Source: Lichina pygmaea (lineage: Eukaryota; Ascomycota; Lichinomycetes; Lichinales; Lichinaceae). Taken from it: a stretch of DNA of 64,000 nt. Positions 1-63,350 of the stretch are shown one piece after another. The notes below the pieces were generated by a model. The model ran no database searches and was not told the DNA's origin. It saw nothing but the letters and a program-made list of their open reading frames with translations. The DNA lies in NCBI GenBank assembly GCA_963422465.1, contig OY730171.1:124001-188000 (forward strand). Direction: 5' to 3'. Both the position numbers and the translations under genes were made by a program. The stretch's first letter is position 1. Every line of letters starts with the position of its first letter.

Positions 1-143
1 CTATTGATCAGGTGTCACCTCCACCATGTTCCACCAAACCCCTTCGCACTCCTTGACACTCCTCTCCTGCAAGAACCAACCCGCCTTCCACCTCTCGCCC
101 TAATCCTATACTCAGATAGGACAGTACAGTACAGACTGCAACA
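1..143 (+). repeat. Ty3-A LTR, 3' end only (cut by window edge)
   Basis: This stretch matches the last 140 or so bases (R/U5 side) of the complete Ty3-A LTRs at 3218-3847 and 9189-9782, and ends in the same CAACA terminus. LINE-A sequence begins directly after it. The rest of the LTR, and any internal region, lies left of the window, so it could be a solo LTR or the 3' LTR of a plus-strand element. It marks an insertion that truncated L1 inside its reverse-transcriptase domain. Confidence 0.85.
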
Positions 144-1876
144 CCTTCCTTCCAGACTTTTTCCACTTGGGAGGTTAGAAGGAAAAGTGCTGCTTCTGTG
201 GATCTTCCTTTCCTAAAGCCCATCTGGATATCTGGCAATAGTCCAGCTTCTTCTGCTATCTTGCTTAGTCTGGCTGCAGCAATAGCTTCTATCAGCTTGC
301 CTGTTGTGTTTAGCAGAGCTATAGGGCGCCAGGCTTTAGCTTGATTGTAGGTTCCCTTGCCAGGTTTCCTCAAGCAGACTGTTTTTGCACTCTTAAATCT
401 TTCAGGGAAGTACTCCAGTTTCCAGCATGTTGAAGTCAGAATAGCTAGAGCTTGGCAGAACCTAGGCCCCAGAGCTCTCAGAAATCCATTTGGCAGCTTA
501 TCTCTCCCTCCTGCTGTGAAAGGTTTCTTCTTGGCCAGAATTTGCTCCACTTCTTCACATGTTACCTCCTGGGAGAGCTGTATCTCAGAGATAGTCTGGG
601 AGCTTTCTGAGCCTGGTTCTGGAACTAGAGCTTTTGGAAAGAACTGCTGTGAGAAGGCTTTAGTCTTTTCCTCAAAGGTTTTGGCTATTCCTTCTTGTGT
701 TTCCAGGTCAGGAACTAGAGGAAGATCAGGAGTCTTGTTGGCTTTGGATCTTCCCCACTTTGCAAGCTTCCAGAACTTTGAAGAGCTGGCCAGCTCATGG
801 ATTTGGTGTCTGAAAGTGTTCTGTTTTCCATCTCTGACTGCCTTTTTCTTGAGCTTAGTTGCTTGCTCAAGTTCCTCTTGACTTGCTTGTCTTTTTTGCA
901 CTTTTCTTCTTACTCTTCTTTCCTCTTTAACCTTGTTTTGGATCTCTTGATTCCACCAGGGGACTGAGTGGCCAGATTGCTTCTGGAGCTGTGTGGATTT
1001 GCTTGCTATTTCTTGGAGAAAGTTGTCAAGATACTCCAAGTACTCATCCACTTCATATTTGTCTTGGAAGTGGAAGGGCAGGTGTAGCTTCTCACACTCT
1101 ACTCTTGCAAGGTTTGAGTCCAGTGTTCTCCAGTTTCTTTCTGGTTTCCAGATTTTCCTTGGAGGATCCAGGTCCAGGCAGGTTAGTACAGGTCTGTGGT
1201 CAGACCCATGAAAGAACTGAAGAGCCACTTTGGAGAAAATCAGAGAGTTAGAAAGAGAAGAAGAAATAAAAGACAGATCAATAGAAGAACATGGTTTTTC
1301 AGAAAGAGATCTTGCTCTGGTAGGGGTGAAAGGTGCAATAGCTAAATCCAGATTTAAATCTTTCATTAGGTCTTGAAACTTGTTTGCAGTCTCAGAGTAC
1401 AGTCTTCTTTTCTTTGACCAGTCTGGGTGGTGAAGATTTGAGTCTGTGAGAAGAATATGTTGTCCTTGTTCTTGTAAAGCATTTTGGAGTAAACAGAGAA
1501 GAGCTTCTGATGCCTCTGTGTAGTTTTCTTGACTTGATGGGGTGAAGTAGAGATTATGTACCCAAAGAGAAGTAGGAGAGTTTTCCAAGTAGATTTCAAG
1601 AGAAACAAAGTCTTTATTCCAGAAGGTAGGATGAAGAGAAGAGAGTTTCAGATTTTTATTAATAAGAAAAAGTGTTCTGCCAATCTCTGAACAGTAGAGA
1701 GGAAGAAAGGAAGAGAAAACAGTTGAAGTGCTTGTTTCTAGGTGAGAGTTTTTCCAGGGCTCTTGAAGTGCAATAATGTCCACCTCTTGGAGAGCTGAGG
1801 TTGCTAGCAGTAGCTCTTGGACTGATTGGCTTTTTTGCACATTATACTGGAGAAGTGTCAGCTTTGTGTCTTTCAT
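144..1876 (-). pseudogene. L1 ORF2, N-terminal 577 codons (endonuclease plus start of reverse transcriptase)
   Basis: This is the replicase ORF of a Tad-like LINE, which would nick the target and copy its own RNA there. An apurinic/apyrimidinic-type endonuclease domain fills roughly residues 1-235: LQYNVQKS with Asn12, ALQEPW with Glu39, TDSNLHHPDW, IDLSFIS and GSDHRPV. A basic linker follows, then the first reverse-transcriptase blocks (KPGKGTYNQAKAWRPIALLN, MGFRKGRSTE). The frame is open until the LTR junction at 143/144, so the catalytic FADD block is absent. The start ATG (1874-1876) overlaps the ORF1 stop as ATGA. The relatives L6 and L8 are nearly identical. Confidence 0.9.
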
Positions 1877-3217
1877 GCAGACATCTCAGCATCAAAGATC
1901 TTGAAGGAGTTAGCTGGTAGCTTTCCTCCAGAGTTGGCTGATCTTGAAGAAAGAATTTGCACTTCTGGGAGTGCACCTCTGAGTCACTCTGAGCTTCTGC
2001 TTGGCTCAGCTGTTTTACGTTTTTTCCCTCCTGGTAGAGACTGAGAGAGAGGGAAAGACATAACTGGGGGGGGTTGTAGAGCTGGAACAGAGGTAGCTGT
2101 TGGGATCTCATATTTTCCTGGGCGTGTGTTCCATACTTCTCTTGCCTTCTTGGCTGCTTCCTGGCGTACTGGACAGACACTAGCCCAGGCTGGGTGAGCT
2201 CCTCTGCAGTTGCAGCATTTTGGCTTGAGAAGCTGTTCAGGAACTTGGCAGGCTCTTCTTTCATGCTGGCCTCCACAGGCACCACACACAGCTTTGTTCT
2301 TGCAGAAGTGTGCTTGGTGCCTATAGCCAAAGAACTTGAAACATTGTGCAATGACTGTGTCTGCCAGGAAAGGTTCTGCTTCATGCATCCTGTGCCCCAG
2401 CACTAGCCCACTCTCAATCAAAAGATTAGCTTGTTCAGGGGTAGCCAGATCCAGGTGGAGAGAGGTAACTGGCTTCTTTTGAGCTATAGCCTTCTTAGAC
2501 TAGTAGGCTCTCAGGATAGTGATTTGTTTGCTCAGAGATGGGTTGCTGTTCTGGATTATCTGGCAGGTTTTCTCCAGGTCTTCAGGTTGGATATCTTCTG
2601 TTCTGACTCCATGGATCAGAACTGGGAATCTCTTGGGCTGGATGGTTGCTTCCTTTGTGAAGATAGCTGATACCCAGGCAGGGTTTTTCTCTAGGAAGAC
2701 TTTAGTCTCTTGGCTTTCTGTGTTAATAAGGATATCCCCTGAAGGAAGTTTCCTTACTGCTCTGACCTGCTTGTTGTAGGGACTGGGTAGTCTGTCTTGA
2801 AGAGCCTGTAAAAGCTGGATGTGAGTTCTATTAGCCATGTCAGGTGGCTGGATACCAGGATGTACAAGAACTTCTTTGAGAATTCTTGCAGGTAGAGGGA
2901 TTTGTGCTGGAATGGATTTTTGGACAGCCTGGGCATATGATGGCTTGGCTTCTTGTTTGTCCAGCCGCTTGTTGATATTCTCCAGCTTCTGGAAGATTCT
3001 GTTGGTGAGGCCAGTAGAGCTAGACTGGGCTTCTGTAGAGAAGGAGTTCTTTTTGATATTTTCCCAGCTTTTCAGAATAGATTCTGGGACTGGTTGGGTT
3101 TTGATCCAGGAGTCTACTAGTTTGTAGTCATTCTGGGGAGCTAGTTGGAGGGTAGGAGAGCTGGACTGGGTGCTAGGCAGACTGGAAGCTGGTTGGGAGA
3201 GTATAGCTGGTGTAGCT
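1873..3217 (-). pseudogene. L1 ORF1 (nucleic-acid-binding Gag-like protein), main part
   Basis: This is the ORF1 RNA-binding protein of the LINE. Three C-terminal zinc knuckles are visible (the first degenerate, then CGACGGQHERRAC and KCCNCRGAHPAWASVC). Upstream is a conserved domain with KLPSGDILINTE and a block LATPEQANLLIESG shared with L3, L9 and LINE-B. Two in-frame stops are seen relative to L3: TAG at 2500-2502, where L3 has Trp, and TGA at 1984-1986. The first 17 or so codons lie beyond the Ty3-A insertion, at 9783-9834. Confidence 0.85.
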
Positions 3218-3310
3218 TGTTACGACCCAGGAGGAACACAGTCTTTATATACTCACAGAAAGCAGCAGACAGGATACTGGACAGAAGTACCAGACAGCGT
3301 GACACGGGAA

Positions 3311-3326
3311 CCGGTCACGTGACCGG
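3311..3326. promoter_or_regulatory. Perfect palindrome with CACGTG core in U3 (repeated at 9281-9298)
   Basis: CCGGTCACGTGACCGG is a perfect 16-bp palindrome. In the 3' LTR it extends to 18 bp (ACCGGTCACGTGACCGGT). CACGTG is the classical E-box bound by bHLH factors, so this is a plausible activator site for the LTR promoter. Being symmetric, it could serve transcription in either direction. The otherwise unrelated U3 of Ty3-A2 and Ty3-A3 keeps GTCACGTGAC (37517-37526, 43458-43467, 62698-62707). Confidence 0.55.
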
Positions 3327-3374
3327 CGAGACAAACCAGGGGGTGCTCGCCGCAGCATGCATATGCACGAACAA

Positions 3375-3594
3375 GTGAGCAAAGTGAGCAGAGCTCACCC
3401 AGCTCGCCGCAGCGTGCATGAAAAGTGAGCAAAGTGAGCAGAGCTCACCCAGCTCGCCGCAGCGTGCATGAAAAGTGAGCAAAGTGAGCAGAGCTCACCC
3501 AGCTCACTGCAGCGTGCATGAAAAGTGAGCAAAGTGAGCAGAGCTCACTTATCTCACCGAGTGAGCAAAGTGAGCAGAGCTCACTCTGCTCACG
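3375..3594. repeat. 50-bp tandem array in Ty3-A1 5' LTR U3
   Basis: Units begin at 3375, 3425, 3475 and 3525 with GTGAGCAAAGTGAGCAGAGC. The last is followed by a partly rearranged copy up to 3594. Within each unit GTGAGC pairs with the following GAGCTCAC, so each can form a small hairpin. The array sits directly upstream of the TATA-like box, where an enhancer would act. The same array in the 3' LTR (9345-9528) is 36 bp shorter. Confidence 0.85.
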
Positions 3595-3865
3595 AACTGG
3601 GCACTATATAGCCAGGTGATAGTTCCCCTATGGAACGATCGTCTTCAACTCATGTTGTGATCCAGACAACTAGATCTACTTCAATACAATCCTTTTGTAC
3701 GAAGCTGTTGATCAGGTGTCACCACCACCACATTCCACCAAACCCCTTTGCGCTCCTTGACACTCCTCTCCTGCGAGAACCAACCCGCCTTCCACCTCTC
3801 GCCCTAATCCTATACTCGGATAGGACAGTACGGTACAGACCGCAACACTTTGAAGACCCTCAAGG

Positions 3866-5365
3866 ATGAGTACCTCAGGAGTAACCAACCCCAACTTCCC
3901 AGATGGAAAGATTAGCGTCGCCAAGCCAGACCTGTTCTACGGCGAAAGAAACAAGGTTGACGACTGGCTCATGCAACTCCAAGTCTACTTTCAATTCCAA
4001 CCAGAGACAAAGCTGCCTAAGGAGAAGTGGCCCCTCTTCGCAACCACTTACATGAGAGGCAATGCTTATCGATGGATCAAGCCCTACGTCAACAAACATC
4101 TCTCAGGGAACGGAGACCACGACGGCACAACAGAATGGATGACAAAATGGACGCGATTCAAGGACGAGATCAAAAGGATCCTTGGACCATCTAACAAAGA
4201 CAAAGTGGCTATACGAATGATCCAGCACATCAAACAACAACGCTCAGCCGCAGAGTACACCACGCAGTTCAAACAATACTCAGTACTGACTGACTGGGAT
4301 GACGACGCCCTGATGGTCATGTACTGATGTGGACTCAAGGAAAACGTGAAGGATGAGATCACCTTCGACGGACGAGCAGTTGACACACTGGATGAACTCA
4401 TCGCACAAGCAATCAACATCGATGACAAGCTATTCGAGCGAGCGATGGAGAAGCGCCACGATGGAGGATACAGCCACCCCGCATGGCATGTGAGCAACCA
4501 CTACAAGCCGCCTAACAAGGCACCACCACATGATCCATATGGCTATGCACCCATGGAACTGGATGCAGTCCACCACAAGGGAAGGTTCACGAAGGGAAGG
4601 AACAACAAAAAGAGGAAAGCACTGAAGTGCTATGCCTGTGGCAAGCTAGGCCACATGGCGAAAGACTGTCGTTCAAAGAACAAGGTGCACCGACAGCAAC
4701 TTAATACGCTCGACGGAGACTGGAATGTCATCGAGCCAGAGGACCCACCAGGAGAGGCTCAGCTATCCCTCGAACAATGGGACGACTACGATCAGATATT
4801 GGAAGCAGCCCACCAACTGGCAACATCAGGAGGCAAGGACCTACCAGAACTAACAGGTCAGGACAAGGGACAGGAGCCCTTAACCACCTCTGATGGGGAC
4901 CGAGACAAACCCGCGTCTATCAAAGAAGAAATACCACGAGGAAGCTATGCTTACAGCATGGACCCACGAAATCTACGGCACGGTGAACTACAGTGGAGGT
5001 TTTGCACGAAGCACTACTGCACCTACCACGAACAACTACGAAGGTACGGAGGACATTCACCCTACCACGCCACCTGCCACAAGCATTGGGTCAATTGCGA
5101 GAAGGATGCGTGTGAGATCCATCTTTGGGACAAATGCCAACACACCGCATTCCCCGGGCACACACATGATTGGCACGAACGCCTCATGTTCCTACAGCAA
5201 GGCAACAACTACAACTGCTACATTGACAATTGGCAGTACTGCCTCAAGCCTGGATGTGACAAGCATCAGCAAGACAAATTCATGAACGGATTCCTCAGAA
5301 CTGATGGGAATGGCTGGACCCATTGCCCAGTCAGTGGTAAGACACTTCGATCGGGAAAAGACTGA
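3866..5365 (+). pseudogene. gag: Ty3-A1 gag
   Basis: This is the structural polyprotein of about 500 aa, starting 18 bp after the LTR. The N-terminal capsid-like part (KPDLFYGERNKVDDWLMQLQ, then KEKWPLFATTYMRGNAYRW) is typical of fungal chromoviruses. A single CX2CX4HX4C knuckle (CYACGKLGHMAKDC) lies near residue 255. The C-terminal 125 residues are unusual: three copies of W-x2-C-x4-C-x2-H begin near residues 377, 408 and 456 (bases 4994, 5087, 5231) in a Cys/His-rich domain that I do not recognise from other Ty3 Gags. It is broken at about one place. Confidence 0.88.
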
Positions 5366-5403
5366 ACTCCCTTGTCAAGGGGCGACATCGGGAGCTCAAC
5401 AAC

Positions 5404-8400
5404 ATGACCCCTAGCAACGCAAAGCACCTGCGATTGCCTGTGTCACTACATGCCAACACGCCAGTACAGACATACGCACTTGTTGACTCTGGAGCCAGTG
5501 GAAACTACATCTCAAGACAACTTTACGATACCCTCGGCACTGGAAGGAGACGCAAGCAGCAGCCCTATCAGCTCGCGATGGCAAATGGACAGACAGAGCT
5601 AGTCTGCCATGAGACGCAGCCAATGGAAATGGTTACCGGACACCATGCTGAAAGGATCCACCTTGATATCGTCGAGTTGGCCACTCAGGATATCTATTTG
5701 GGGATGCCTTGGCTAAAGAAGCACAACCCAGTTGTTAACTGGAAGACAGGAGTACTCACGTTTAGGAACTGCACTAACAACGCAGCTCGGACCTGTTACC
5801 AGCCGCAGAAGGCGTGGACAGATGAGGGAAGGAGTCCTCAGTGGAACCTCACCGACAGAAAGGACAACTCTCAAAAGAAGAGGTCCGCCTCGACAGGCAC
5901 ACCCCGGAACCAGGTGGCCAAACAGTCAGAGATGAAGAGAGAGGAAGTTGTTAACCCTCTGGAGATCCCTGAAGAGTACTGACCTGGGTATGATAACCTC
6001 TTTCAGGAAGAGACAACGACAGCAGCGTTGCCTAAGCACCAACCTTGGGATCATGAGATCAAGTTGCAACCAGGGACGGAGCCAGGATTTGGACTAATTT
6101 ACCAGTTATCAGAGAAAGAGCTCCAAGTACTTCGCGAGTACCTGGAGGAAAACCTGAAAAAGGGTTTCATTCGAGAATCTCAATCACCAGCAGGATACCC
6201 GATACTATTTGCACCAAAGAAAGACGGAAGTCTTCAACTTTGTGTGGATTACAGGAAACTCAACAACATTACCATCAAAAACTGATATCTGTTGCCAAAT
6301 GCGAACGAATTGCGAGACAGGATCAGTCAAGCTACAATCTTCACCAAGCTGGACTTGAAAGGAGCATACAACCTGATACGCATGAAAGAAGGAGAAGAAT
6401 GGAAGACAGTCTTCAGAACCCGATACAGACACTACAAGTATCTGGTTATACTATTCGGACTCACGAACGCACCAGCAACATGTCAAGCATTGATCAACAA
6501 CGTCATCAGAGCACACCTGGACCAAACAGCTATCACCTACCTGGACGACATTCTTGTCTACTCGAACACGCAACAGGAACATACCAAACATGTGAAGGAT
6601 GTTCTACGATGCCTACAAAAGGCAGGGCTCAAGCTCAACCCGAAGAAATACGAGTTCAACAAACCGGAAGTTGAATTCCTCGGATACATCATAGGGATTG
6701 AAGGGATCAAGATTGACCCTGAGAAAATCAAAGCGATTCAGCAATGGCCAACACTGACATCAGTTAAGGAAGTACAAGCCTTCCTAGGATTTGCCAACTT
6801 CAACCGACAGTTCATCAAGAACTACTCACAGATGGCAACTCCACTGACAGAACTCACGAAGAAGGACGTGGAGTACCGGTGGACGGAGAGACAACAAAAA
6901 GCATTCCAACAGCTCAAGGACGCTTGCGCCAAGGAACCAGTTCTCCTCAACTTCAAGACAGGCCAACCGACGCGAATCGAAACAGACGCTTCAGACCAAG
7001 CAGTGGGAGCATGTCTATGCCAACAGGCAGACGGCAAGTGGCACCCAGTTGCCTACTACTCACGCAAAATGTCACAAGCGGAACGAAACTATGATATCCA
7101 CGACAAAGAGCTACTGGCAGTCGTCAACGCACTCGAACACTGGAGAGTGTACGCAGAAAGCAGTTCCGAACTCACTGTTCTCACAGACCACAAGAATCTG
7201 ACAACATTCACGACAACCAAGAAGCTGAACAGACGGCAAGTCAGATGGGCTGAACTCCTCGGGCAACACAAGTTCAAGATCTTGTACACCCCTGGACAAG
7301 ACAATGGGAGAGCAGACGCACTAAGCCGACGAAAAGACCACATGGAAGATGATGAACGCCAAGGAACGATCTTACAGCAGGACCAGCAAGGAAACCTGGT
7401 GCCTCAACCACAGATCAACAAGCTCACGGCAGAAGACACTGAAGAACTAATAAGGAACTACCACGATAATCCAGCACATGGTCACCCAGGAATCACCAAA
7501 ACCACAGACCTGATCCAACGGGCAGGGAACAATGTCATTAACCTCTGACAACATGTCACAAACTACATCAGCAAGTGTCTACTATGCCAGAAAAACAAAT
7601 ATGGGAGACACAAGCCATATGGAGAAGGACACCCGAACACAATACCGAGAGGCCCGTGGGAAGATGTGTCAATGGACTTCATCACAAAGCTACCCAAGTC
7701 CAAAGACCCAGTCACAGGAATCACCTACGACTCAATTATGGTGATTGTGGACAGATTCACAAAATACCTAATAGCGGTACCATTCAAGGAAACCCACACA
7801 GCAGAACAGTTGGGACACCTCTTACTGGACAGATTAGTCAGAGACCACGGAGTTCTGATCACAATCATTACAGACAGAGACAAACTCTTCACATCCAACT
7901 ACTGGAAGACAATCAGTGCAGCCATGGGAACAAAACCCAAAATGTCTACGGCCTATCACCCACGAACCGACGGCCAGACGGAGCGAGCGAACCAAGTCCT
8001 GGAGACTTACCTACAGCATTACATCAACAAAACCCACAGTAATTGGGTACAGTTATTACCGGTGGCACAGCTGGCAATCAACCAGCACAGATCAGACTCA
8101 ACAAAGGAATCGCCATTTTTTGCCAATTTTGGACGACATGCAAACATCGGGATGCCAAGCAGAGCTTCACCAAACGCGGAGAAAGCACTCCAACACGACA
8201 AGCTCCTACGACAAACGCACACGATGATGAGGCACTACCTTCAAGAGACCTCAGAAAGAATGCAACGCCAAATGGACAAGAAATCGAAAATGGCACCTCA
8301 GCTGAAGAAGGGGGATAAAGTCTACCTCCTCACAAAAAATTGGAAAGCCAAGAAACCAAGAACAAAGAAACTGGACCATGTCAAGGTCGGACCATTTTCA

Positions 8401-8736
8401 GTCGAAGAAAAAACTGGACCAGTCAACGTCAGACTGCGACTACCAAGGGATGCCAGAGTCCATCCAAACTTTCATATATCAATGATTGAACCAGCCGACC
8501 AGAGCACACCCTTGCAGGAAACATTTCATCACCAACCCGAAGAAGAACAAGAGTTCGAGGTTGAACAGATCCTGGCTAGAAAAGGTCAGCAATACCTTGT
8601 CAAGTGGAAAGGATACCCAGACTTGGAGAATACCTGGGAACCACTCAAGAACCTCGCGAACTGCCAGCTTCTTCTGCAACAGTTTCGGCAGGAGCAGGAC
8701 CGAACAGCTCGGCCTGCAGGAGGGACATGTCAATGA
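5404..8736 (+). pseudogene. pol: Ty3-A1 pol (protease, RT, RNase H, integrase, chromodomain)
   Basis: Domains in order: aspartic protease with LVDSGASGNY near residue 28; RT with [20 protein letters not shown] and the catalytic YLDDILVYSN (about 6535-6564); RNase H with IETDASDQAVG and DKELLAVVNALEHW; integrase with a HPGI zinc-finger region, MDFITKLPKSKD, ITDRDKLFTS and YHPRTDGQTER; and a C-terminal chromodomain with FEVEQILARKGQQYLVKWKGY and ENTWEP (about 8545-8670), which reads histone methylation in characterised chromoviruses. Gag and pol lie in different frames. The region is broken at about three places. Confidence 0.92.
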
Positions 8737-9145
8737 CTGATCGAGTCAAATCCTCGCCATCCGACTCCATCTCTTTCACCAAGCACTGAAGCTTCTGCCT
8801 CGCACGGACCTCGGCGCCCTCCAACACCTTTCGTTTCCGAGACAGACAAGCCTGCACTGTGGCAAGTTGTTCAAAGAGTGCATCACGTGTTGCCTCGTCA
8901 GCGGCAACATCCTCACGGAGGTTGTCCCGGGACATGTTCAAAGATTCCCAGGACACAGAGACACAAGACCTTCCGCGCCGAGTGCACGCAGCACATTTCA
9001 ACTTATCGTCTTCTCCCGGCATCTGGAAGCATGGACGACCACGGAGAACACAAAAGTCGCAGGGCGTACGCGAAACAAAACCCCGATCGCGAATTTGAGC
9101 AGCCAGCTGAGTTCGGCTAACAGTCGCACGTGACTTTGGAGGCAT
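8645..9145 (-). CDS. Antisense Zn2Cys6 / coiled-coil protein carried by Ty3-A1
   Basis: This open frame of 166 codons runs opposite to the element. Its start lies 44 bp from the 3' LTR, and its 3' end overlaps the end of pol by 92 bp (convergent). Residues about 29-61 have the exact spacing CX2CX6CX11CX2CX6C of the fungal Zn2Cys6 cluster (CDFCVLRGRPC, then CAACTRRGRSC). Residues about 68-135 are rich in spaced Leu, Lys, Arg and Glu and look like a coiled coil. No signal peptide or membrane segment is seen. The same protein is found at 42814-43314 and 62850-63350 and, with the same architecture but a diverged sequence, in Ty3-C at 34729-35238. The function is unknown; a DNA-binding regulator or chromatin factor is my inference. 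It looks whole here. Confidence 0.75.
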   Translation of the reverse strand: MPPKSRATVSRTQLAAQIRDRGFVSRTPCDFCVLRGRPCFQMPGEDDKLKCAACTRRGRSCVSVSWESLNMSRDNLREDVAADEATRDALFEQLATVQACLSRKRKVLEGAEVRARQKLQCLVKEMESDGEDLTRSVIDMSLLQAELFGPAPAETVAEEAGSSRGS

Positions 9146-9170
9146 GACCAGATTTCATCAAGACGATGAA

Positions 9171-9188
9171 AGATGGAGAGGAGGATAG
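9171..9188 (+). other. Polypurine tract of Ty3-A1
   Basis: AGATGGAGAGGAGGATAG lies immediately upstream of the 3' LTR (first base 9189). This is the expected position of the plus-strand DNA priming site. Equivalent purine-rich runs ending in TAG precede the 3' LTR in Ty3-A2 (43341-43358), Ty3-C (35346-35362) and, on the minus strand, Ty3-A3 (62806-62822). Confidence 0.75.
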
Positions 9189-9782
9189 TGTTACGACCCA
9201 GGAGGAACACAGTCTTTATATACTCACAGAAAGCAGCAGACAGGATACTGGACGGAAGTACCAGACAGCGTGACACGGGAACCGGTCACGTGACCGGTGA
9301 GACAAACCAGGGGGTGCTCGCCGCAGCATGCATATGCACGAACAAGTGAGCAAAGTGAGCAGAGCTCACCCAGCTCGCCGCAGCGTGCATGAAAAGTGAG
9401 CAAAGTGAGCAGAGCTCACCCAGCTCGCCGCAGCGTGCATGAAAAGTGAGCAAAGTGAGCAGAGCTCACCCAGCTCACTGCAGCGTGCATGAAAAGTGAG
9501 CAAAGTGAGCAGAGCTCACTCTGCTCACGAACTGGGCACTATATAGCCAGGCGATAGTTCCCCTATGGAACGATCGTCTTCAACTCATGTTGTGATCCAG
9601 ACAACTAGATCTACTTCAATACAATCCTTTTGTACGAAGCCGTTGATCAGGTGTCACCACCACCACGTTCCACCAAACCCCTTCGCGCTCCTTGACACTC
9701 CTCTCCTGCGAGAACCAACCCGCCTTCCGCCTCTCACCCTAATCCTATACTCGGATAGGACGGTACGGTACGGACCGCAACA
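9189..9782 (+). repeat. Ty3-A1 3' LTR
   Basis: This 594-bp LTR matches 3218-3847 throughout except for a shorter U3 tandem array (9345-9528) and about a dozen scattered substitutions. It ends CAACA and is followed by the target duplication TAGCT (9783-9787), after which the L1 ORF1 resumes. Confidence 0.93.
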
Positions 9783-10330
9783 TAGCTCTGGTGTTACTTT
9801 CTGAAGAGGTGGGTTTTTTCTTCTTGGGAGCCATGTTAGAGATTGTTTGGCACTGGTTTGGTGTTTTCTGTCTGCAGAGTACTGCCAGAAAGAAGAGTCA
9901 CCTGGTTTCCCAGCAGTAATAATCTAGTCCTGGGACCAATCCCCAAGACTAGACTTTCCTGGGCAGCTTTTTCCAACTAAGCTCTGGGCAAAGCTAGAAG
10001 TATTAACCTAGACTAGGGACCAGACCCCCTATCTAGACTTTCCTTGAGTCAAAGACTCTGCTAGCTCCAGAGTCAGTCAGACTCTAACTATTCCTCTTAT
10101 CCTGAGACTCTTTCTCTGGTTGTGGGTAGATTGCTGGTTGTTGAAGAAGAAGATTGTGGATTCAAGATCACAACTTTTGACAAACAGGCGTGGTTCTCAA
10201 AGGTGATGGGTTTTCACCTTAAGGTTTGAGTGGTTTCAGAGAGGAACTTGGCTGTTTTCCAGAATATATGACAAATTGTGGTTTTTGTCAAAAATGATGG
10301 TCCTTGAAGGACGTGGTTCTGGGAAGAGTT
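9783..10330 (-). mobile_element. L1 ORF1 start and 5' untranslated region
   Basis: The ORF1 start codon is at 9832-9834, followed by a lysine-rich N-terminus (MAPKKKKPTSSES) that reads on into the block at 3217 across the TAGCT duplication. Upstream, 9835-10330 is the LINE 5' UTR. It aligns with the 5' UTRs of L3 (18464-19090) and L9 (53569-54187), including the conserved stretch around CACAACTTTTGACAAACAGG. No gene is seen in the UTR. Confidence 0.85.
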
Positions 10331-13825: not shown

Positions 13826-16800
13826 CTAGATGTTGGAGTGTGAATAGTGAAGTTTGAAAGCCAGATTAAATTGGTTTAGTCTTTTCAAAGACATAAACCA
13901 GTACAGAAACTTCTGTAGAAGCTCTGGGTTTGAAATAATAGTAGTGAAATCTTGGGGGTTAAAGAGAGCATGTTGTCTTTGACTTGAGTAGAGAGAGCAT
14001 GAAGAGGTGATATGCTTTACTGTCTCTTCTGCTTGACCACACATGCATAGGGGGGTAGGAAAGTCAGGGACTCCAGCTCTGAAAAGAAAACTTGCTAGAC
14101 CAATTCTCCCAGTTCTGGTTTGCAGTAGTAGACTTGCCTCAGCTTTCTGTAGCTCTTTGTAGAGCTTTAGGTTGTTGTAGTGAGGTTTTTGGCAAAACAC
14201 CTGCCATCCAGCATAGCCTTTTCTTTTCTTCTCCTCCCATTGGTTTTCCCACTCTTTAGTAAAGAGTATTTGTAGTTCTTTCTTTGAACTAGCCTGGTTA
14301 GTAGTTATTTGACTTAACCAAGTGAACTTCCAATTAGGAGAGATAGTTGAGGATTTCTTTAAAGGTTTCCTCAGTGAAGAAGCATAGGAAGAAATAGTAG
14401 AAAAGATACTGTCAAGAAAGTCTTTCAGAGAGGAGGTTTGGATAGAAGATAGAAAACAAGCTGTGCGAAATTTAAAATAGAGATCTAGAGGTAAAAGAAA
14501 AAGCTCACTCTCTAACAGAAAAGAAGGAGTGGCTTTGAAAGCACCCCCAATAAGTCTCAGACATTTGTTTTGGAATATGATAAGAGAGGAAATATTAGAG
14601 GATTTTCTGAGTGGGTTGAACCAAATTCCCACTGCATAGCTCAGTACAGATCTGAGTATTGCAGTGTACACAAGGCGTGCTGTGAGAACTGGAAAGCCCC
14701 AGGTGGAGTAAGAGGTTCTAGAAAGAGAAGATAGTGCTTTTTGTGCTTTTTGAAGAATAATTCTCTGGTGTTTGTGCCAGTGGACTTTGGCATCCAGGTA
14801 CACTCCCAATACTCGCACTTCTTCTTTTGGTTTTAGAATCACATTCCCAAGTCTAAGCTTGAGCTGCAGATTGTCTGATCTTCTTCTGGAAAAATGAAGT
14901 ATTTTATATTTCTCAGGAGAGAAGACTATTCCATGTCTTGCAGCCCAAGATAGACATTTAAGATGTGTATTCTTCAACTTCAGAAGGTTGCTTTTAAGAG
15001 AGTGTCCAAATGCAAGCAGATTTGTATCATCTGCAAATCCCAGAGCAGAAACACCAGTAGTAGGAGAATGTACAGTCTCATGAAGTTCAGAAATATAGAA
15101 TAGAAAAAGAATAGGAGACAAAGGGGAACCTTGGGGAACTCCACAGTGAATAGGAATAGAAGAGGACTCAGAGTCATCAAAAACTAGGGTGGTGGTACGT
15201 CTGGTACAGAAAGAGAAGATCCAAGAAGTTAGCCAGAGAGGGATTCCTTTTCTCTCCAGAATCTTTTGAAGAATCTCTGGAAGAACTCTGTCATATGCTC
15301 CTGAGATGTCCAGAGAAAGTAGAGATGCAACCATGCCTTCTTTCCAGACTTTTTCCACTTGGGAAGTTAGAAGGAAAAGTGCTGATTCAGTTGATCTGCC
15401 TTTCCTGAACCCCATCTGGATTTCTGGCAAGAGTTTAGCCTCTTCTGCTACCTTGCTTAGTCTGACTGCTGTAATAGCTTCCATCAGCTTGCCAGTTGTG
15501 TTTAGCAGAGCTATTTGGCACCAGGCTTTAGCTTGGTTATAGATTCCCTTGCCAGGTTTTCTTAGACAGACTGTTTTTGCATTCTTGAATTTCTCTGGAA
15601 AGTATTCCAGTCTCCAGCATGTTGATGTGAGAACAGCTATAGCTTGGCAGAACTTGGGACCCAGAGCTTTCAGAAATCCATTTGGCAGCTTGTCTTTTCC
15701 TCCTGCTGTAAAAGGTTTCTTCTTGTTCAGAATTTGCTCCACTTCTTCAGTGGTAACCTCCTGAGAAAGCTGGATCTCTGGGGTACTCTGGTGACTTTCT
15801 GTACTTGGTTCTGGAACACGTGCTTCTGGAAAGAATTGAGCTGAGAAAGATTTTGTCTTCTCCTCAAAGCTTTTGGCTAGTCCTTCTTGAGTCTCCAGAT
15901 CAGGGACCAGAGGAAGATCAGGGGTCTTGTTAGCTTTTGATTTTCCCCACTTTGCAAGCTTCCAGAATTTTGAGAAACTGGCTAGCTCATGAACTTGTTT
16001 TCTGAAGGTGTTCTGTTTGCCTTCTCTGACAGCTTTCTTCTTGAGCTTAGTTGCTTCTTCTAGCTCTTCTTGGCTTGCCTGTCCTCTGAGCACTTGTCTT
16101 CTTATTCTTCTTTCCTGCTTAACTTTAGTTTGGATCTCTTGGTTCCACCAGGGGACTGAGTGGCTAGATTGCTTCTGGAGTTCTGTGCATCTGTCTGCTA
16201 TTTCTTGGAGAAAGTGGTTAAGATATTCCAAGTACTCATCCACTTCATGTTTATCTTGAAAGTGGAAGGGCAGCTGCAAATTATTACACTCTTGTTTTGC
16301 CAGGTTTGTGTCCAGTGTTTTCCAGTTCCTTTCTGGCTTCCAGGTTTTTCTTGGTGAGTCCAGGTCCAGGCTAGTTAGCACAGGTCTGTGGTCAGACCCA
16401 TGAAAGAACTGCAAAGCAATTTTAGAAAAGATTAGAGAGTTAGAAAGAGAAGAAGATATAAAGGAAAGATCAATAGGTGAACAGGGTTTGTGGGAAAGAG
16501 ATCTAGCTCTTGTGGGTGTAAAAGGTGCAATAGCTAACTCCAGATTTGAGTTTTTCATTAGAGTTTGGAACTTGTGTGCAGTGTCAGAATAGTCTTCTTT
16601 TCTTTGACCAGTCAGGGTGGTGAAGATTTGAGTCTGTAAGAAGAATATGCTGCCCTTTTGCTTGTAAAGCATTTTGGAGTAGACAGAGAAGAGCTTCTGA
16701 TGCTTGTAGGTAGTTCTCTTGACTTGAGGGAGTGAAGTATAGATTATGCACCCACAGAGAAGTAGAGGTGTTTTCCAGATGAATTTCAAGAGAAACAAAG

Positions 16801-18463: not shown

Positions 18464-19090
18464 AGGGTAGGTAACCTGCACAGTGGGTTGTTCACAAAGG
18501 GTCACCTGGTTCCTAGCAGTAATTGCACAATCCTGGGACCACTCCCCAAGACTGTACTTTCCTGGGCAGTCTTTTCCAACTAGACTCTAGGGAAATCTGG
18601 CTGTATTAACTCAAGCTGGAGACCACACCCCCTGCCTGAGCTTTCCTAGAGTTTTTCAACTCTACCAGCACTAGAGGCAAGCTCTAAACTATTTCTCTTA
18701 TCCTGGGAGCCCTGATCTCCTTGATGCTAGATGTTTCTCTTGAGAGAAGTTCAAGCTGTTATCTGTCTGACTGGGAGTACTTACTCAATCCTGGGACCAC
18801 ACCCCAAGACTGAGTGTTCCTAGGTAATTGGGGCCTGTCCCCAGTCTTTCAGAATCCCACTGGCCACTCTCTGCCTTGTTATAGATAGTCTGTTGGTTGT
18901 TGAAGTTGAAGATCGAAGATTCAGAGATCACAACTTTTGACAAACAAGCTGGGTTACCCAAAGTGATGGGTTTTCACCTTAAGGTTTTGGTGGTTCCCAA
19001 CAGATACTCGCTTGGTTTCCAGAACTTCTGACAAAGTCCGGTGATTATCAGAAGTGATGGTCCTTGAACGTAGTGGTACTGGGAAGAGTT
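18464..19090 (-). mobile_element. L3 5' untranslated region
   Basis: This noncoding leader of about 630 bp matches 53569-54187 closely and 9835-10330 more weakly. It contains repeated short stretches of the type CCTGGGACCAC-CCCAAGACT (near 18533 and 18793). LINE-A elements are expected to carry an internal promoter in this region, but no specific motif can be assigned. Confidence 0.75.
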
Positions 19091-19091
19091 T

Positions 19092-20228
19092 TGGTTTGAA
19101 TAGAAAGATGAAAGAAAACATGCTGTTCTCAGCTTGAAGTATAAGTCTAGAGAGTGTAGAAATAGTTCTGATTCAAGTAGGAAAATAGGAGTGACTTTAA
19201 AGACACCTCCTATAGTTCTTAAACATTTATTTTGGAAAGTAGATAATGAAATATTATTAGAGAGTTTCTTTTGGGGATTGAGCCAGACTCCTACTGCATA
19301 AGTAAGAAGAGATCTTAGTATAGCAGTGTAGACATGACATGCTGTTAGGACTGGTAGTCCCCAAGTAGAGTAGGTTGTTCTGGATAAAGCTGAGAAATAT
19401 TTGGAGACTTTCTGTGACATGATTTTTTGGTGTTTTTTCCAGACAAGTTTTGAGTCAAAGTAAAGTCCCAAGATACGCACTTCTTCTTTTGGTTGAAGTA
19501 CCACTTCTCCAAGTTTTAGACTGAGCTGAAGATTGTCTCTTCTTCTTCTAGAAAAATGGAGAAGTTCATACTTTTCAGGTGCAAACTTCATACTATGTTT
19601 TCTTGCCCAGTCCTGACATTTGGAATGTGTAGACTTCAACTTGAGAAGGTTGCTTTTCAAGGAAGAGGAGAATGCAAGAAGATTAGTGTCATCTGCAAAA
19701 CCAAGTGCTGAAACTCCTTTCTCAGGGGTGTGTACAGTATTGTGCAGTTCTGAGATATAGAAAAGAAATAGAATAGGAGAGAAAGGTGATCCTTGAGGGA
19801 CTCCACAGTATATAGGGAACTGGGGGGATTCTGAGTCATCAAACACCAGAGAGGTAGTACGTGAAGTAGTGAAGGACAAGATCCAGGATACAAACCACTT
19901 AGGAATCTTTCTCTTAATCAGGATCTTTCTGAGAACTTCTGGCAAGACTCTGTCATAGGCTCCAGAGATGTCTAGAGAGAGAAGACTAGCAATCTTTCTT
20001 TCTTTCCAGATCTTTTCTACCTGGGAGGTCAGACGAAAAAGTGCTGATTCTGTTGATTTTCCTTTTCTGAATCCCATCTGGATTTCTGGCAAGAGATTTT
20101 CTTTCTCAGCTAGTTCACTTAGTCTTGCAGCTGTAATAGCTTCCATTAGCTTCCCAATTGTATTCAGGAGAGCTATAGGGCACCATACTTTTGCTTGACA
20201 GTAGGATCTCTTGCCAGGTTTCCTTAGG
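19092..20228 (-). pseudogene. L4: LINE-B reverse-transcriptase fragment
   Basis: A LINE-B ORF2 piece of about 379 codons, open throughout. It contains the RT core: GFRKGKSTES, SLDISGAYDRV, CGVPQGSPFSPILF, GFADDTNLL and HFSRRRRDNLQ. It matches L10 (about 58380-59520) at roughly 97 percent by eye. It is cut on the right (RT N-terminus) by repeat R and on the left by the 5' end of L3, so neither LINE terminus is present. Any reading on into 18974-19090 is fusion with the L3 leader and not real coding. Confidence 0.88.
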
Positions 20229-21350
20229 CTCACAGTCGTACTATGCCAGAACATAGTGTAGAGTTGGCACCCCCCCACAGGGTCTCTACCACACTTTCCC
20301 ACAGTCCCGAGGTCTCTTGCACTCCGCCGTACGTGCTCACCCCTGGGATCCTGCTTCGGAGCACTGGGTCACCAGTCCAGAGCCCACACTCCAACTGTAG
20401 TTTACTCCCTGAGCTTGTTGTTTGCAGTCTAAGCCTGCACTCTGTACAAACCGGCATGCACATCTGTCCTCTCAGGCCATATAGACAGTCTTGTAGTAGG
20501 CCCAGGCTCTACCTCTGTCACTGCCATTATATGCCACACCTCACAGTTATTAACTGTTTCATGTTACCTTCGCAGATCTCTTGTACAAAGGCCGACTATG
20601 CCTCGCAGGCCTTACAGACCCTGCAGGCTGTGCCAGCACCTGCAGGGCCACCTTTCCAGCCCACTAACCAAGTAGGGAGGAGTTTTGCTTGGTCCGCTGT
20701 CACCTGTGGGACCTTGGTTGCACTTGTTGGCCTACTGGATAACCCAGTCCCCCAGCCTCAGATTGTGGATTGTACGAAGAGACTTCATGGCAAGGCCTTA
20801 CGCAAAACCATCAAGCCAGCACTTTGGCTATCACACAGCCCTTAGGCACTGGAGTGGTGACATCTCCTCATACAACCACTCTTCTTCTTTAACAGGTGGT
20901 CCCTGTTCAATTAACAACACCACAGTGCCAAGGCCACTCCCCCTCTAGCAGATCCTCACGTGTTAGCTGGAGACTCTGCTAGGAGGGTGACATGATGAGA
21001 ACTCCTCTTGACTACTCCAGAGGTGCCCTATCAGACACCTAGACTTCACATCCACCAGCTGTGGGGCTGGCTTCAGGCTGTAGTGTACACAGTAGTTGTC
21101 TGTCAGGTGGTTTTCATCTCCCAAGCTTGGTCGCAGTCCTCTGTTCTACTGTAGCTGTTTCACAGGGGTGTCCAGGGTGCCTGCACAACACCTCCAGTGG
21201 CCTATCACTCCGCAACACCCGCAGCTTGACCAGTGACTTGATTAACTCTCAGTGCAGTGACTACGAGCAGTCTGGGAAGCCACCCGCTATCAACTGCCCT
21301 GAGGTTCCCAGCCTGCACCACGTAGAGCTTTGAGTTGTTGCAGGCCAGGG
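20229..21350 (+). repeat. Repeat R, copy 2 (noncoding, unclassified)
   Basis: These 1122 bp correspond in reverse orientation to 10331-11325 and extend about 120 bp further at the right end. Unlike its surroundings this copy is rich in CpG and in GC, so it is either young or protected from deamination. The open frames in it (for example at 20243-20845) are not conserved in copy 1, so I read it as noncoding. Its left flank is LINE-B (minus) and its right flank is LINE-A (plus), so no target duplication can be read. Confidence 0.7.
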
Positions 21351-21670
21351 GGAAAAGATAAGCTGCCAAATAGATTTCTGAAAGCTCTGGGTTCCAAGTT
21401 CTGCCAAGCTATGGCTGTTCTCACATCATTATAGTGGAGACTGGAATACTTTCCAGAGAGGTTCAAGAATGCAAAGACAGTCTGTCTAAGAAAACCTGGT
21501 AAAGGATGCTATAACCAAGCTAAAGTCTGGCACTCTATAGTTTTGCTAAACACAACTGGCAAGCTGATAGAAGCTATTACAGTAACTAGGCTAAGCAAGG
21601 TAGTAGAAAAAGCTAGACTTTTGCCAGAAATCTCTATAGACTTCAGGAAAGAAAGATCAACTGAATCAGC
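21351..21670 (+). pseudogene. L5: short LINE-A ORF2 fragment
   Basis: This fragment of about 320 bp of the RT N-terminal region aligns with 28795-29115 of L6 (GKDKLPNGFLKALG through the GFRKGRSTES block). It is decayed, with in-frame stops (for example TAG in place of the Gly codon of LPNGF, and a TAG in the region corresponding to LTSTCW). It is truncated on the right by the Ty3-B LTR. Confidence 0.82.
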
Positions 21671-21972
21671 TGTGACAAGGCAATAGCAGAGCAGAACTCA
21701 AGCCTAACTGATTCGGTAACCTTGACCTGACTTGGCCTGAGACTTGAGACTTGGATTGATGTACAAGACGAAAGACAAGGAAGAAAGAAAAAGAGAAAAG
21801 AAGAGAAGAAGCTAGGGGAGCAGGAGAAGTTCTTATAGGCAGGGGATCAGGCAACAGTGGAGCAAACAGGCAACAGTGCAGATGGAACTTTCCAGCAAGG
21901 TGTGTGCAGATGGAACTTCCCGGCAAGGTGTGTGACTTATGCCAGATATGCAACTGGGCCAGAACTGTGACA
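21671..21972 (-). repeat. Ty3-B 3' LTR, with adjacent polypurine tract at 21973-21990
   Basis: This 302-bp LTR is 29 bp longer than its partner because a stretch around GCAGATGGAACTT-CCAGCAAGGTGTGT is duplicated in tandem. Read on the minus strand, the bases just before it are GAAGGAGGGGGGTAA, a clear polypurine tract that fixes the element's direction. Confidence 0.9.
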
Positions 21973-22089
21973 TTACCCCCCTCCTTCACATAGCAAACTC
22001 CTGTGAGTCTCAGGCTGCTTGTGGGTGTAGTTCTGTGGCTGTGGTTTCCTTGGGTATTTCTCATGGAAGTTGTAGATGGTGTCTTTGGT

Positions 22090-27021: not shown

Positions 27022-27433
27022 TGTGGTGCCAGTGGAGGCCAGCATGGAAGGAGAGTCTGCCAAGTTCCTGAACAGCTTCTCAAGCCAAAATGCTGCAACT
27101 GCAGAGAAGCTCACCCAGCCTGGGCCAGTGTCTGTCCAGTACACCAGGAAGCAGCCAAGAAGGCAAGAGAAGCATGGAACACACGCCCAGGAAAATATGA
27201 GATCCCAACAGCTACTTCTGTTCCAGCTCTACAACCTCTCCCAGTTATGTCTTTCCCTCTCTCTCAGTCTCTACCAGGAGGGAAAAAACGTAAAACAGCT
27301 GAGCCAAGCAGAAGCTCAGAGAGACTCAGTTGCACTCCCAGAAGTGCAAATTCTTTCTTCAAGATCAGCCAACTCTGGAGGAAAGCTACCAGCTAACTCC
27401 TTCAAGATCTTTGATGCTGAGATGTCTGCATGA
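27022..27433 (+). pseudogene. L6 ORF1, C-terminal end
   Basis: It begins within the zinc knuckles (GGQHGRRVC, CCNCREAHPAWASVC) and ends FKIFDAEMSA followed by TGA, which overlaps the ORF2 ATG at 27430. Compared with L3, a net 2-bp loss near 27330 shifts the frame between the SRSSERL and PEVQILSS segments. Confidence 0.82.
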
Positions 27434-29534: not shown

Positions 29535-29966
29535 TGTTAAGGCCTAGGCCGGAACGGCCCAGGTAAGCGAGGGAGAGGTGTTAGTCATGCGGAACAACAT
29601 CCGACCGATCTGGTGGACAAGCAAGAGCTAAGCGAGGAGCTTGTCCGGTGGACGAGCAGGAGCTAAGCGAGGAGCTCGTCCGGTGGACAAGCAGGAGCTA
29701 AGCGAGGAGCTCGTCCACGCAAAAGGATGATACCCCTCGAGGAGACCCCCCCCCTTGGGGCATCTGTATAAAGACCCCCAAAGAGCCCGGAGGGATTAGC
29801 TCTCCAGGCTGAACACATACAAGCAATACAAACCCATCGTACAGAGACAATAGCACAGGAGAGTTACCCCACCTGTCTATTCCTCTACCAAGTCCCTGTC
29901 TAAGAATCCACCCACGAAGCAACAGACCGTACTGGTTTCTGTGTGAACCCGGCCCAGCCTTTAATA
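29535..29966 (+). repeat. Ty3-C 5' LTR with three 35-bp hairpin units
   Basis: This 432-bp LTR carries exact 35-bp units at 29612-29646, 29647-29681 and 29682-29716. Each has the inverted pair GGACGAGC / GCTCGTCC (or its GGACAAGC / GCTTGTCC variant) around GGAGCTAAGCGAG, so it can form a hairpin. A TATAAAGA box follows at about 29767. The 3' LTR has three more units, which accounts for the entire length difference. Confidence 0.92.
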
Positions 29967-34300: not shown

Positions 34301-34784
34301 AACAACAATCAACTGTGCCCAGAACACTACTGCCCGCCAATTACACGACAAAAGGTTGAAGGGACCAACCCTGGAAAGGGGGGATAAGGTCTACCTATCA
34401 ACAAAAAACCTGCGCTCGAAGTGACCGAGCAAAAAGCTGGACCATGTACAAATCAGACTATTCAAAATCGAGAAGCGCACTGGGAAAGTCAACTATCGAC
34501 TGAGACTGCCATGAAAAGCAAGGATACACCGAGTATTCCACATCTCACTGCTCGAACCAGCACCCAGCGACGCAGAGGTCAAAACAGAATGGAACTTTGA
34601 GGACGATGAAGAAGAGTACGATGTCGAAAGGATCCTGGATAGTCGGAGAAACAGACGGAAAACTGAGTACCTGGTGAAGTGGTTACGATTTGACAAAGAG
34701 GAGAATTCGTGGGAACCAACCAAGAACTTCAGCTCTGTGATAAACCAGAAACTGGTGGATTACCACCAAGCAAATCTGCAGTGA
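31279..34784 (+). pseudogene. pol: Ty3-C pol (protease, RT, RNase H, integrase, chromodomain)
   Basis: Protease has [11 protein letters not shown] (near 31520). RT has [19 protein letters not shown] and YIDDVLVYTN (near 32555). RNase H has ILETDASDQALGSC. The integrase has a zinc-binding segment ending CEQCAKNK, MDFMVKLPKSTD, ISDQDKLFT and YHPQTDRQTEQ. The chromodomain (YDVERILDSRR, EYLVKWL, SWEPTKN) lies at about 34615-34760. It overlaps gag by 40 bp in another frame, an arrangement compatible with ribosomal frameshifting as used in some members of the family. It is broken at about ten places. Confidence 0.88.
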
Positions 34785-35238
34785 CCAGGTCTGACGGAGA
34801 CAACAGCTCGAGAGAAGCCAAAGCCTCTGAAGAGAAGACATCCTCAAAGGACAGCGGAGCAGCAGCTTGACAGGCCTCCCGTTCGCAGATAACGCGGAGG
34901 GCCTCTTGTTCCTGAGCATCGAGGGACTCTTGATCCTTGATAGCTGACAGCTCACGATGGATGGCATCGGCCTCCTTCTGTGAGAGATGACCCAGCTGCC
35001 GGCGGAGGCAGATCTGCCGGGGAAGTAGTTTTGACAGTTGGTCATCAGTCTCCCGCAGCTGAGCCTTGAGCTGCTCGCGCTCAAGTTCCATCTTCTTCCA
35101 TTCTGATTCCGAGAGATGAAGGTCGCAGCGACAACCCTTCTCGATGCACCGACAACAAAAAGATGATGCAGAACTCACAACACACTTGGCGTGGTCATGA
35201 CGACAAGCACTGCATGTGATTTTTGATTCCTTGCCCAT
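34729..35238 (-). CDS. Antisense Zn2Cys6 / coiled-coil protein carried by Ty3-C
   Basis: The frame is 169 codons, open throughout. It starts 125 bp from the 3' LTR and overlaps the end of pol by 56 bp. The N-terminus carries CX2CX6CX8CX2CX6C (CSACRHDHAKC, then CCRCIEKGCRC), a match to the Zn2Cys6 spacing, although two extra cysteines make the ligand assignment uncertain. Residues about 40-110 (WKKMELEREQLKAQLRE, QLSKLLPRQICLRRQLGHL) have strong heptad-like Leu spacing. Position, orientation, length and domain order match the Ty3-A antisense protein, though the sequence is much diverged. It looks whole. Confidence 0.75.
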   Translation of the reverse strand: MGKESKITCSACRHDHAKCVVSSASSFCCRCIEKGCRCDLHLSESEWKKMELEREQLKAQLRETDDQLSKLLPRQICLRRQLGHLSQKEADAIHRELSAIKDQESLDAQEQEALRVICEREACQAAAPLSFEDVFSSEALASLELLSPSDLVTADLLGGNPPVSGLSQS

Positions 35239-42500: not shown

Positions 42501-42872
42501 ACAAGAAATTGGAGAACAAAGAAACCAAGAACAAAGAAACTGGACTATGTTAAGGTCAGACCATTTTCAGTCGAAGAAAAAACCAGACCAGTCAATGTCA
42601 GACTGCGACTACCGAGAGACGCTCAGGTACACCCAAACTTTCACATCTCAATGATTGAATTAGCCGACCAGAGCACACCCTTGCAGGAAACATTTCATTA
42701 CCAACCAGAGGAAGAACAGGAATTCAAGGCTGAACAGATCCTGAAGAGAAAAGGTCAGCGATACCTTGTCAAGTGGAAAAACTACCCAGACTCGGAAAAT
42801 ACCTGGGAGCCACTCAGGAACCTCGCGAACTGCCAGCTCCTCCTGCAGCAGTTCCGGCAGAAGCAGGACTGA
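39575..42872 (+). pseudogene. pol: Ty3-A2 pol
   Basis: This region is collinear with the Ty3-A1 pol: protease (LVDSGASGNY), RT, RNase H (ASDQAVGAC), integrase (ITDRDKLFTS, YHPRTDSQTER) and chromodomain (KAEQILKRKGQRYLVKWKNY). It is broken at more than a dozen places. Confidence 0.88.
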
Positions 42873-43314
42873 ACAGCTTGGCCTGCAGCGTGGACGTGTC
42901 AATGACTGTCGCTGACAAGTCTTCACCATCCACCTCCATTTCAGCAATAAGACACTGGAGCTTCTTCTTTGCTCAACTCTCAGCACCCTCAAGAACCTTT
43001 CACTTTCAGGACACACAAGCCTGCAGCTCGGCAAGCTGCTCAACAAGAGCATCCCGCTTGGCCTCATCAACAGCCAAATCCTCGCGAAGGTTATCCTGAG
43101 TCATGTTCAGCAACTCCCAAGAAAGTGACACACAGGACTTCCCACGATGAGTGCATTCAGCGCACTTCAACTTATCATTGTTTTCAGACATTCAGAAGCA
43201 GGGCTTGTGGTTCAAAACACAGAAGTCACACGGAGCAAGCAACACAAAGTTATGATCACAGATCTGGGCTGCCAGTTGGTTTCAGTAAGCAGAGGCACAT
43301 GATTTTGCAGACAT
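42814..43314 (-). pseudogene. Ty3-A2 antisense Zn2Cys6 / coiled-coil ORF
   Basis: This 501-bp region has exactly the length of the Ty3-A1 antisense ORF and the same position, with its start 44 bp from the 3' LTR. The cluster CDFCVLNHKPC and CAECTHRGKSC, the SWELLNMTQDNLRED block and the helical part are recognisable. It is broken at a few places, in keeping with the state of the whole element. Confidence 0.75.
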
Positions 43315-62849: not shown

Positions 62850-63350
62850 ATGTCTGCAAAATCATGTACCTCTGCTTACCAAAACCAACTGGCAGCCCAG
62901 ATCTGTGATCATAACTTTGTGTCACTTGCTCCGTGTGACTTCTGTGTTTTGAACCACAAGCCCTGCTTCCGAATGTCTGACAACAACGATAAGTTGAAGT
63001 GCGCTGAGTGCACTCATCAGGGAAAGTCCTGTGTGTCACTTTCTTGGGAGTCACTGAACATGACTCAGGATAACCTTCGCAAGGATTTGGCTGTTGATGA
63101 GGCCAAGCGGGATGCTCTTGTTGAGCAGCTTGCCGAGCTGCAGGCTTGTGTATCCCGAAAGTGAAAGGTTCTTGAGGGTGCTGAGGGTCAAGCAAAGAAG
63201 AAGCTCCAGTGCCTTGTTGCTGAAATAGAGGTGGATAGTGAAGACTTGTCAGCGACAGTCATTGACGTGTCTGTGCTGCAGGCCAAGCTGTTCAGTCCTG
63301 CTTCTGCCAGAACTGCTGCAGGAGGAGCTAGCAGTTTGCAAGGTTCCTGA
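62850..63350 (+). pseudogene. Ty3-A3 antisense Zn2Cys6 / coiled-coil ORF
   Basis: This 501-bp region opposite to the element starts 44 bp from its LTR, as in Ty3-A1 and Ty3-A2. The cluster is fully conserved in spacing (CDFCVLNHKPC, 11 residues, CAECTHQGKSC) and is followed by SWESLNMTQDNLRKDLAVDE and a helical segment with regularly spaced Leu. It is about 60 percent identical to the Ty3-A1 protein over 100 residues by eye. It looks almost whole, with about one break. Confidence 0.78.

Follow-up and report, generated by a model that had tools for sequence, protein, structure and literature searches.

Analysis of a 64,000-nucleotide stretch of the Lichina pygmaea genome (GenBank assembly GCA_963422465.1, contig OY730171.1, positions 124,001 to 188,000 of the forward strand; hereafter the window) identified an antisense gene in a Ty3 retrotransposon, situated between the chromodomain of pol and the 3′ long terminal repeat (LTR). 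At 8645-9145 on the minus strand, 166 codons run unbroken from ATG to stop, as had been proposed in an initial annotation made from the sequence letters, and codon-level constraint makes us highly confident that they encode a protein. According to structural models, the product probably carries a Zn2Cys6-like cluster with a dimerising helix. Our preferred interpretation, which is tentative, is that a chromodomain Ty3 retrotransposon carries here, on its antisense strand in the pol-3′ LTR interval, an accessory gene whose product would regulate the element's own LTR. Overall, the observation of the initial annotation is partly confirmed and its interpretation partly supported.

The evidence for coding comes from comparison of three subfamilies of the gene (A, B and C). 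Codons 1-136, the 408 bases lying outside pol, were compared using a single copy each: the window copy for A, locus L074 or L075 for B, and L076 for C. The B and C copies were picked among stop-free matches, and stop absence is therefore not counted as support; the C copy is a single one, from a rearranged locus, and locus L088 was excluded because its frame begins inside the gene. The 122 differences between A and B are distributed 28/21/73 over the three codon positions, with a ratio of nonsynonymous to synonymous substitution rates (dN/dS) of 0.07 and dS near saturation; those between A and C are distributed 17/19/46 (dN/dS 0.21), and dN/dS for B-C is 0.09. Ratios from transversions only are 0.21 (A-B), 0.38 (A-C) and 0.18 (B-C), and since transversions alone are counted, CpG transitions cannot be the cause of these low values. 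Given the near saturation of A-B dS, weight was put on randomisation of the changes: 38 codons are changed from A to B against a mean of 72, 30 from A to C against 51, and 36 from B to C against 69, with none of 5000 randomisations as low in any pair. CpG-aware classes leave the A-B and A-C outcome unchanged. In each pair the antisense frame also has a lower proportion-based ratio (pN/pS) than any of the other five frames (0.24, 0.29 and 0.24), the mirrored frame -2 giving 0.34, 0.34 and 0.38. For the final 30 codons, which lie inside the pol end, the values are 1.7-2.0 (A-B), 0.11 (A-C) and 0.25-0.40 (B-C), pol confounding the comparison. The initial annotation had named dN/dS clearly below 1 as its own test; this is what is found between subfamilies, while within the family the copies mostly decay.

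At least 150 matches to the antisense protein are present in the searched genome (8 contigs, 32.5 Mb), 150 of 510 candidates having been scored, and a second subfamily was found besides; the count covers matches to the gene and not element copies without it. Stop codons, mostly TGA, interrupt 142 of the 150, and eight are stop-free. Sixty copies of subfamily A, drawn from the 150, were fetched. Changed codons number 10.3 in these copies where 12.6 are expected, and stops 1.4 where 0.9 are expected, so that the copies look close to neutral decay. Once the 6/60 copies with gaps are excluded, 54 gapless A copies remain (from the L009-L068 set), five of them stop-free, in which 2042 of 3575 scored C/T changes fall at CpG; within-family dN/dS is therefore uninformative. 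Mutation of the A copies is thus dominated by CpG transitions, unlike the CpA bias of classical repeat-induced point mutation. The two further window copies, whose proteins are about 63-65% identical to the 8645-9145 protein, are by sequence diverged members of subfamily B, and only the 8645-9145 copy is intact among the three. The earlier claim that all three window copies keep one length and one distance from the LTR holds for register and LTR distance (44 nt versus 43), whereas these two copies carry stops (5 and 1) and belong to another subfamily. The position of the gene is kept in subfamilies A and B of this genome. At two loci, L089 (300-1000; subfamily C) and L088 (1-170), the reversed 3′ internal part adjoins an oppositely oriented LTR, which places the zinc-cluster gene downstream of a sense LTR promoter, with different junction points. 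An interpretation as sense-oriented elements was rejected: among the 40 matches scored of 1219 candidates the L089 junction is covered only by its own locus, and both loci are therefore read as rearranged copies.

Frame length by itself is weak evidence for a gene: when the internal region was shuffled 400 times, 33 of the shuffles held an antisense open reading frame (ORF) of at least 166 amino acids. The cysteines are more telling. Residues 29, 32, 39, 51, 54 and 61 form CX2CX6CX11CX2CX6C, bearing out the spacing previously noted. A six-frame scan of the 64 kb finds the six-cysteine pattern four times, three times without a stop, and each occurrence is antisense and close to where a Ty3 element ends on its 3′ side; 40 Markov shuffles yielded no stop-free pattern. 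At E ≤ 0.01, three database searches gave 23, 213 and 197 proteins, the best 120 being listed for each of the two larger sets. The pattern is present in 37 of 39 proteins of at least 155 amino acids, the window protein included, with 8-11 residues between the third and fourth cysteines, and is kept in relatives down to about 40-60% identity. Searches of IMG/VR and of bacterial and archaeal genomes gave 63 and 37 pattern matches, none confirmed by tblastn.

Gal4-type clusters follow the pattern CX2CX6CX5-12CX2CX6-8C, and basic residues in their first half contact CGG. In AlphaFold models of two members of the antisense family each CxxC is followed by a short helix, and a single helix of about 63 residues is predicted as well, in agreement with the probable coiled coil suggested earlier. 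Gal4-type Zn2Cys6 proteins (PUT3, HAP1, GAL4, LEU3, AlcR and PPR1) fill the fold-search lists, and the window protein is like them in cysteine spacing and, as modelled, in the two short helices and in having a helix after the cluster. The Foldseek rows are Gal4-type in 16 of 17 and 18 of 19 cases for the two models, though none is significant. Other results weigh against the assignment. Pfam Zn_clus (PF00172) gives no match for the window protein P0001; and the relative P0133 scores 13.1 bits with PF00172 against a cut-off of 21, this family being listed weakly for 11 of 30 relatives (best E 0.0019). The first halves of the cluster (CDFCVLRGRPC, CDFCVLNHKPC, CDWCCSQGIDC and similar) lack the basic residues that would contact CGG, and a TRRG-like stretch is well conserved in the second half. 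The window protein thus differs from Gal4-type proteins in falling below Pfam and Foldseek significance and in its missing first-half signature; it is also very small, without the larger regulatory domains that are usual in that family. The zinc-cluster identity given in the initial annotation gains from the models and fold comparison, which indicate a Zn2Cys6-like fold and a long helix, while the Pfam Zn_clus threshold is never reached. PDB sequence searches found nothing meaningful, GAL4 appearing at E 4.1 and with the profile only. Other weak Pfam rows, such as DUF3716 (E 0.028, relative P0143) and coiled-coil families, were set aside, and one relative bears the precomputed label PF27583.

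The LTR holds both the putative antisense promoter and the candidate site for binding of the protein. The LTRs of A are related to those of C, pieces of them being alike at 75-81% or above, and the U3 region of the B LTR has diverged widely from either. Four landmarks are common to the three subfamilies, namely the LTR edge, an antisense TATA box, GTCACGTGAC and a sense TATA box. On the antisense strand of subfamily A, TATATAAAG lies 77 nt before the ATG, and a TATA is kept there in all 60 fetched A copies. Of the 16 subfamily B copies fetched, 15 have an antisense TATAAAT at about -79, and the remaining one has no LTR. As the antisense TATA of A is 33 nt from the LTR edge, usual TATA geometry would put the start site at the LTR/internal junction, and we consider it reasonably likely, from the sequence, that the antisense gene is transcribed from this TATA box. 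With 3/60 A copies excluded from the palindrome analyses, the GTCACGTGAC core is present in 53 of 57, and the 18-bp palindrome ACCGGTCACGTGACCGGT is whole in only five. The window has five GTCACGTGAC sites (9285-9294; 3314, 37517, 43458 and 62698), all in LTRs of the first Ty3 lineage. Of 58 aligned sequences, 55 retain the palindrome CpG, where the median for 96 CpG-type sites is 60%. This ranks it second among those sites, behind another LTR CpG, in a test done after the site had been seen, and the retention is only suggestive. Among 151 database proteins, 15 (14 of one subfamily and one distant) read through a peptide, NT.LP, before the start methionine. In subfamily B the antisense LTR edge together with the polypurine tract encodes this peptide, and the same LTR-adjacent placement of the gene therefore probably occurs in other genomes.

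A search with the cysteine pattern revealed a similar ORF in a second Ty3 family of the window, with LTRs from 29535 and at 35363-35899, flanking ACACA, a protease recognised by Pfam and a pol end that, by eye, is chromodomain-like near 34784. This 169-residue antisense ORF (34729-35238) is like the first gene in position, size and six cysteines (CX2CX6CX8CX2CX6C), with a spacing of 8 between the third and fourth. It has at least 150 genome matches, and 113 of the 150 scored are stop-free. Other results count against its being a gene of the same kind. Pfam finds no zinc cluster in its protein, the 260 nt upstream contain no TATA, codon 1 is Ile in all three fetched copies, and codon randomisation against three copies gave 178, 1619 and 317 of 5000 as low. 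As a coding sequence the ORF is weakly supported. Its protein matches the first at E 0.006 in a single BLASTP comparison, out of register, and at a probability of 5.5 in a profile comparison, in register; a claim of homology between the two antisense families was dropped, the similarity being marginal by both methods. Its presence in two families suggests that this layout may hold generally in some fungal chromoviruses. A third Ty3 element (21600-23133, minus strand), which by eye has its polypurine tract and LTR-like start soon after pol and no antisense six-cysteine ORF, forms a natural contrast inside the window.

An antisense gene at the pol-3′ LTR position is already known in plants and in one fungal element. 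The fungal gene, brtn of Boty, was reportedly described by Zhao et al. in 2011. In Boty of Botrytis cinerea it occupies the antisense strand of the pol-3′ LTR gap (PMC7264820, PMC8365987, PMC4227169, PMC5987419), and it is like the window gene in being an extra gene so placed in a chromodomain fungal Ty3 element. It is also present in Boty-like elements of Sclerotinia, and a Monilinia transcript resembling pol and BRTN has been reported, its strand unstated in the available text (PMC8365987, PMC4227169 and PMC5987419 among the sources). The comparison is by description, and the brtn descriptions available make no mention of a zinc cluster. In plants, the aORF-3R genes, namely gene23 of maize Grande, that of rice RIRE2 and TRP28 of Retand (PMC7264820, PMC11963269), have the same place and orientation and are conserved in most copies. 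The product of gene23 is a nuclear protein, and DNA binding is predicted for TRP28 (PMC7264820, PMC11963269). They differ from the window gene in having plant hosts and a long pol-LTR region (2.9-6.6 kb in Retand), and the word zinc is absent from the main texts of both papers. PMC7264820 states that no function is known for the antisense accessory genes of LTR retrotransposons. The initial annotation knew of no described fungal element with a zinc-cluster regulator so placed, which holds only in part, since a fungal antisense gene at this position had been published. Among the titles and abstract openings listed, with few subscription journals covered, there was no fungal LTR element with an antisense gene assigned to the zinc clusters, no codon-level constraint test and no second fungal family with the same layout. 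Such antisense genes could escape both gene annotation and transposon masking.

A further likeness in layout is to HBZ of human T-cell leukaemia virus (HTLV-1), an antisense gene near the 3′ LTR with an LTR promoter, whose product is a nuclear regulator with a dimerising coiled coil. HBZ is a bZIP protein, spliced, belongs to an animal retrovirus and acts in host cells. The layouts are alike, the proteins differ (bZIP versus zinc cluster), and no homology is claimed; Pfam lists no bZIP row at E ≤ 10 for the window protein, in which the six-cysteine segment precedes the helix instead of a basic region. The HTLV antisense promoter is described as lying inside the 3′ LTR (PMC7264820).

In the mechanism that we propose, the TATA box at the inner edge of the 3′ LTR would drive a short antisense mRNA starting near the LTR/internal junction, and its protein would dimerise through the long helix, enter the nucleus and act on the element's own LTRs. 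The candidate target is the shared palindrome GTCACGTGAC between the antisense and sense TATA boxes, and action on the LTR would set the amount of gag-pol RNA. By analogy, this would be an HBZ-like function with a zinc cluster replacing bZIP. That the protein acts on its own LTR is, on this analogy, a possibility put forward with reserve. A broader scheme, in which more than one family of fungal chromodomain Ty3 elements has an antisense Gal4-like regulator, captured repeatedly or predating the family split, whose binding to a palindrome in the LTR balances sense and antisense transcription at a bidirectional LTR, seems unlikely; if true, it would amount to an HBZ-like feedback loop in retrotransposons. 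The combination of regulator-like architecture, codon constraint, candidate promoter and candidate site makes self-regulation directly testable.

The chief rival to self-regulation, which we nevertheless hold to be rather unlikely, is that the protein is a real accessory factor with a non-transcriptional role, binding RNA, Gag or integrase and aiding packaging, nuclear entry or, together with the chromodomain, cDNA targeting. In its favour, codon constraint establishes coding and not a target, and the cluster has its canonical DNA-contacting basic residues missing from the first half and its TRRG-like stretch well conserved in the second. In both families, moreover, the gene adjoins a chromodomain or, by eye, a chromodomain-like pol end. 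Nearly all fold-search rows, none significant, are however sequence-specific DNA-binding proteins, and antisense expression would uncouple the protein from gag-pol, which would fit a regulator better. It is improbable that the antisense RNA itself is the active product (as double-stranded RNA, in silencing or as a decoy), with the protein secondary. The antisense TATA at the LTR edge would suit such a role, and antisense RNA is raised as a possible regulator of plant elements in the available part of PMC7264820, but the 73 of 122 A-B differences at third positions and the changed codons at about half of expectation point to the protein. There is a similarly slight chance that the protein serves the host or other elements, altering host gene expression or competing with related Ty3 families. 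This idea draws on the abundance of both families in the genome, with at least 150 matches each, and on what HBZ does in the cells of its host; neither a host target nor a domesticated single-copy relative turned up, though no search was aimed at either, and the database relatives come without gene context. Finally, a functionless overlapping frame kept by composition or pol, which would agree with the long ORFs in shuffles and the near-neutral decay within the family, is very improbable, being already contradicted by the between-subfamily codon statistics over bases outside pol and by survival of the six-cysteine pattern in distant relatives.

The element carrying the antisense gene spans 3218-9782 and is bounded by LTRs of 630 and 594 bases, with a TAGCT duplication on both flanks. 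Its pol terminates in a chromodomain (PF00385, E 2.2e-16), and the gag-pol of the window copy is split across several frames. Its features, and those of the other antisense copies, are given in Table 1.

Table 1. Positions in the window of the Ty3 element, its antisense gene and related antisense frames.
Feature	Position	Strand	Remarks
5′ LTR	3218..3847	+	TGTTACG...GCAACA ends; TAGCT duplication at 3213-3217
gag-pol region	3848..8736	+	zinc knuckle, protease, reverse transcriptase/RNase H, integrase, SH3-like, chromodomain (~8554-8691)
Antisense gene, 166 aa	8645..9145	-	last 30 codons overlap pol 3′ end (8645-8736)
Predicted helix of 63 residues (66-128), probably a coiled coil	8762..8950	-	model
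Zinc-cluster segment CX2CX6CX11CX2CX6C	8963..9061	-	cysteine spacing, models
Polypurine tract, between antisense ATG and 3′ LTR	9175..9188	+	read by eye
3′ LTR	9189..9782	+	TAGCT duplication at 9783-9787
Putative antisense core promoter TATATAAAG	9214..9222	-	77 nt before antisense ATG, 33 nt inside LTR edge
Perfect palindrome ACCGGTCACGTGACCGGT in LTR	9281..9298	.	contains core GTCACGTGAC (9285-9294)
Second antisense zinc-cluster ORF (169 aa), different Ty3 family	34729..35238	-	
Antisense gene, subfamily B copy, 5 in-frame stops	42817..43314	-	
Antisense gene, subfamily B copy, 1 in-frame stop	62850..63347	+	

The window is rich in retroelements, and Pfam recognised reverse transcriptase, protease or Tf2-type domains in eight of ten further large ORFs scanned. 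Two ORFs of 466 and 467 amino acids (52168-53568, minus strand; 55026-56429, plus strand) have no Pfam match at E ≤ 0.001. Additional reverse transcriptase frames are located at 8-1876 (-), 13826-16672 (-), 18974-20254 (-), 27430-29547 (+), 44871-46529 (-) and 50327-51661 (-), and two of these six also carry an endonuclease domain, as in long interspersed nuclear elements.
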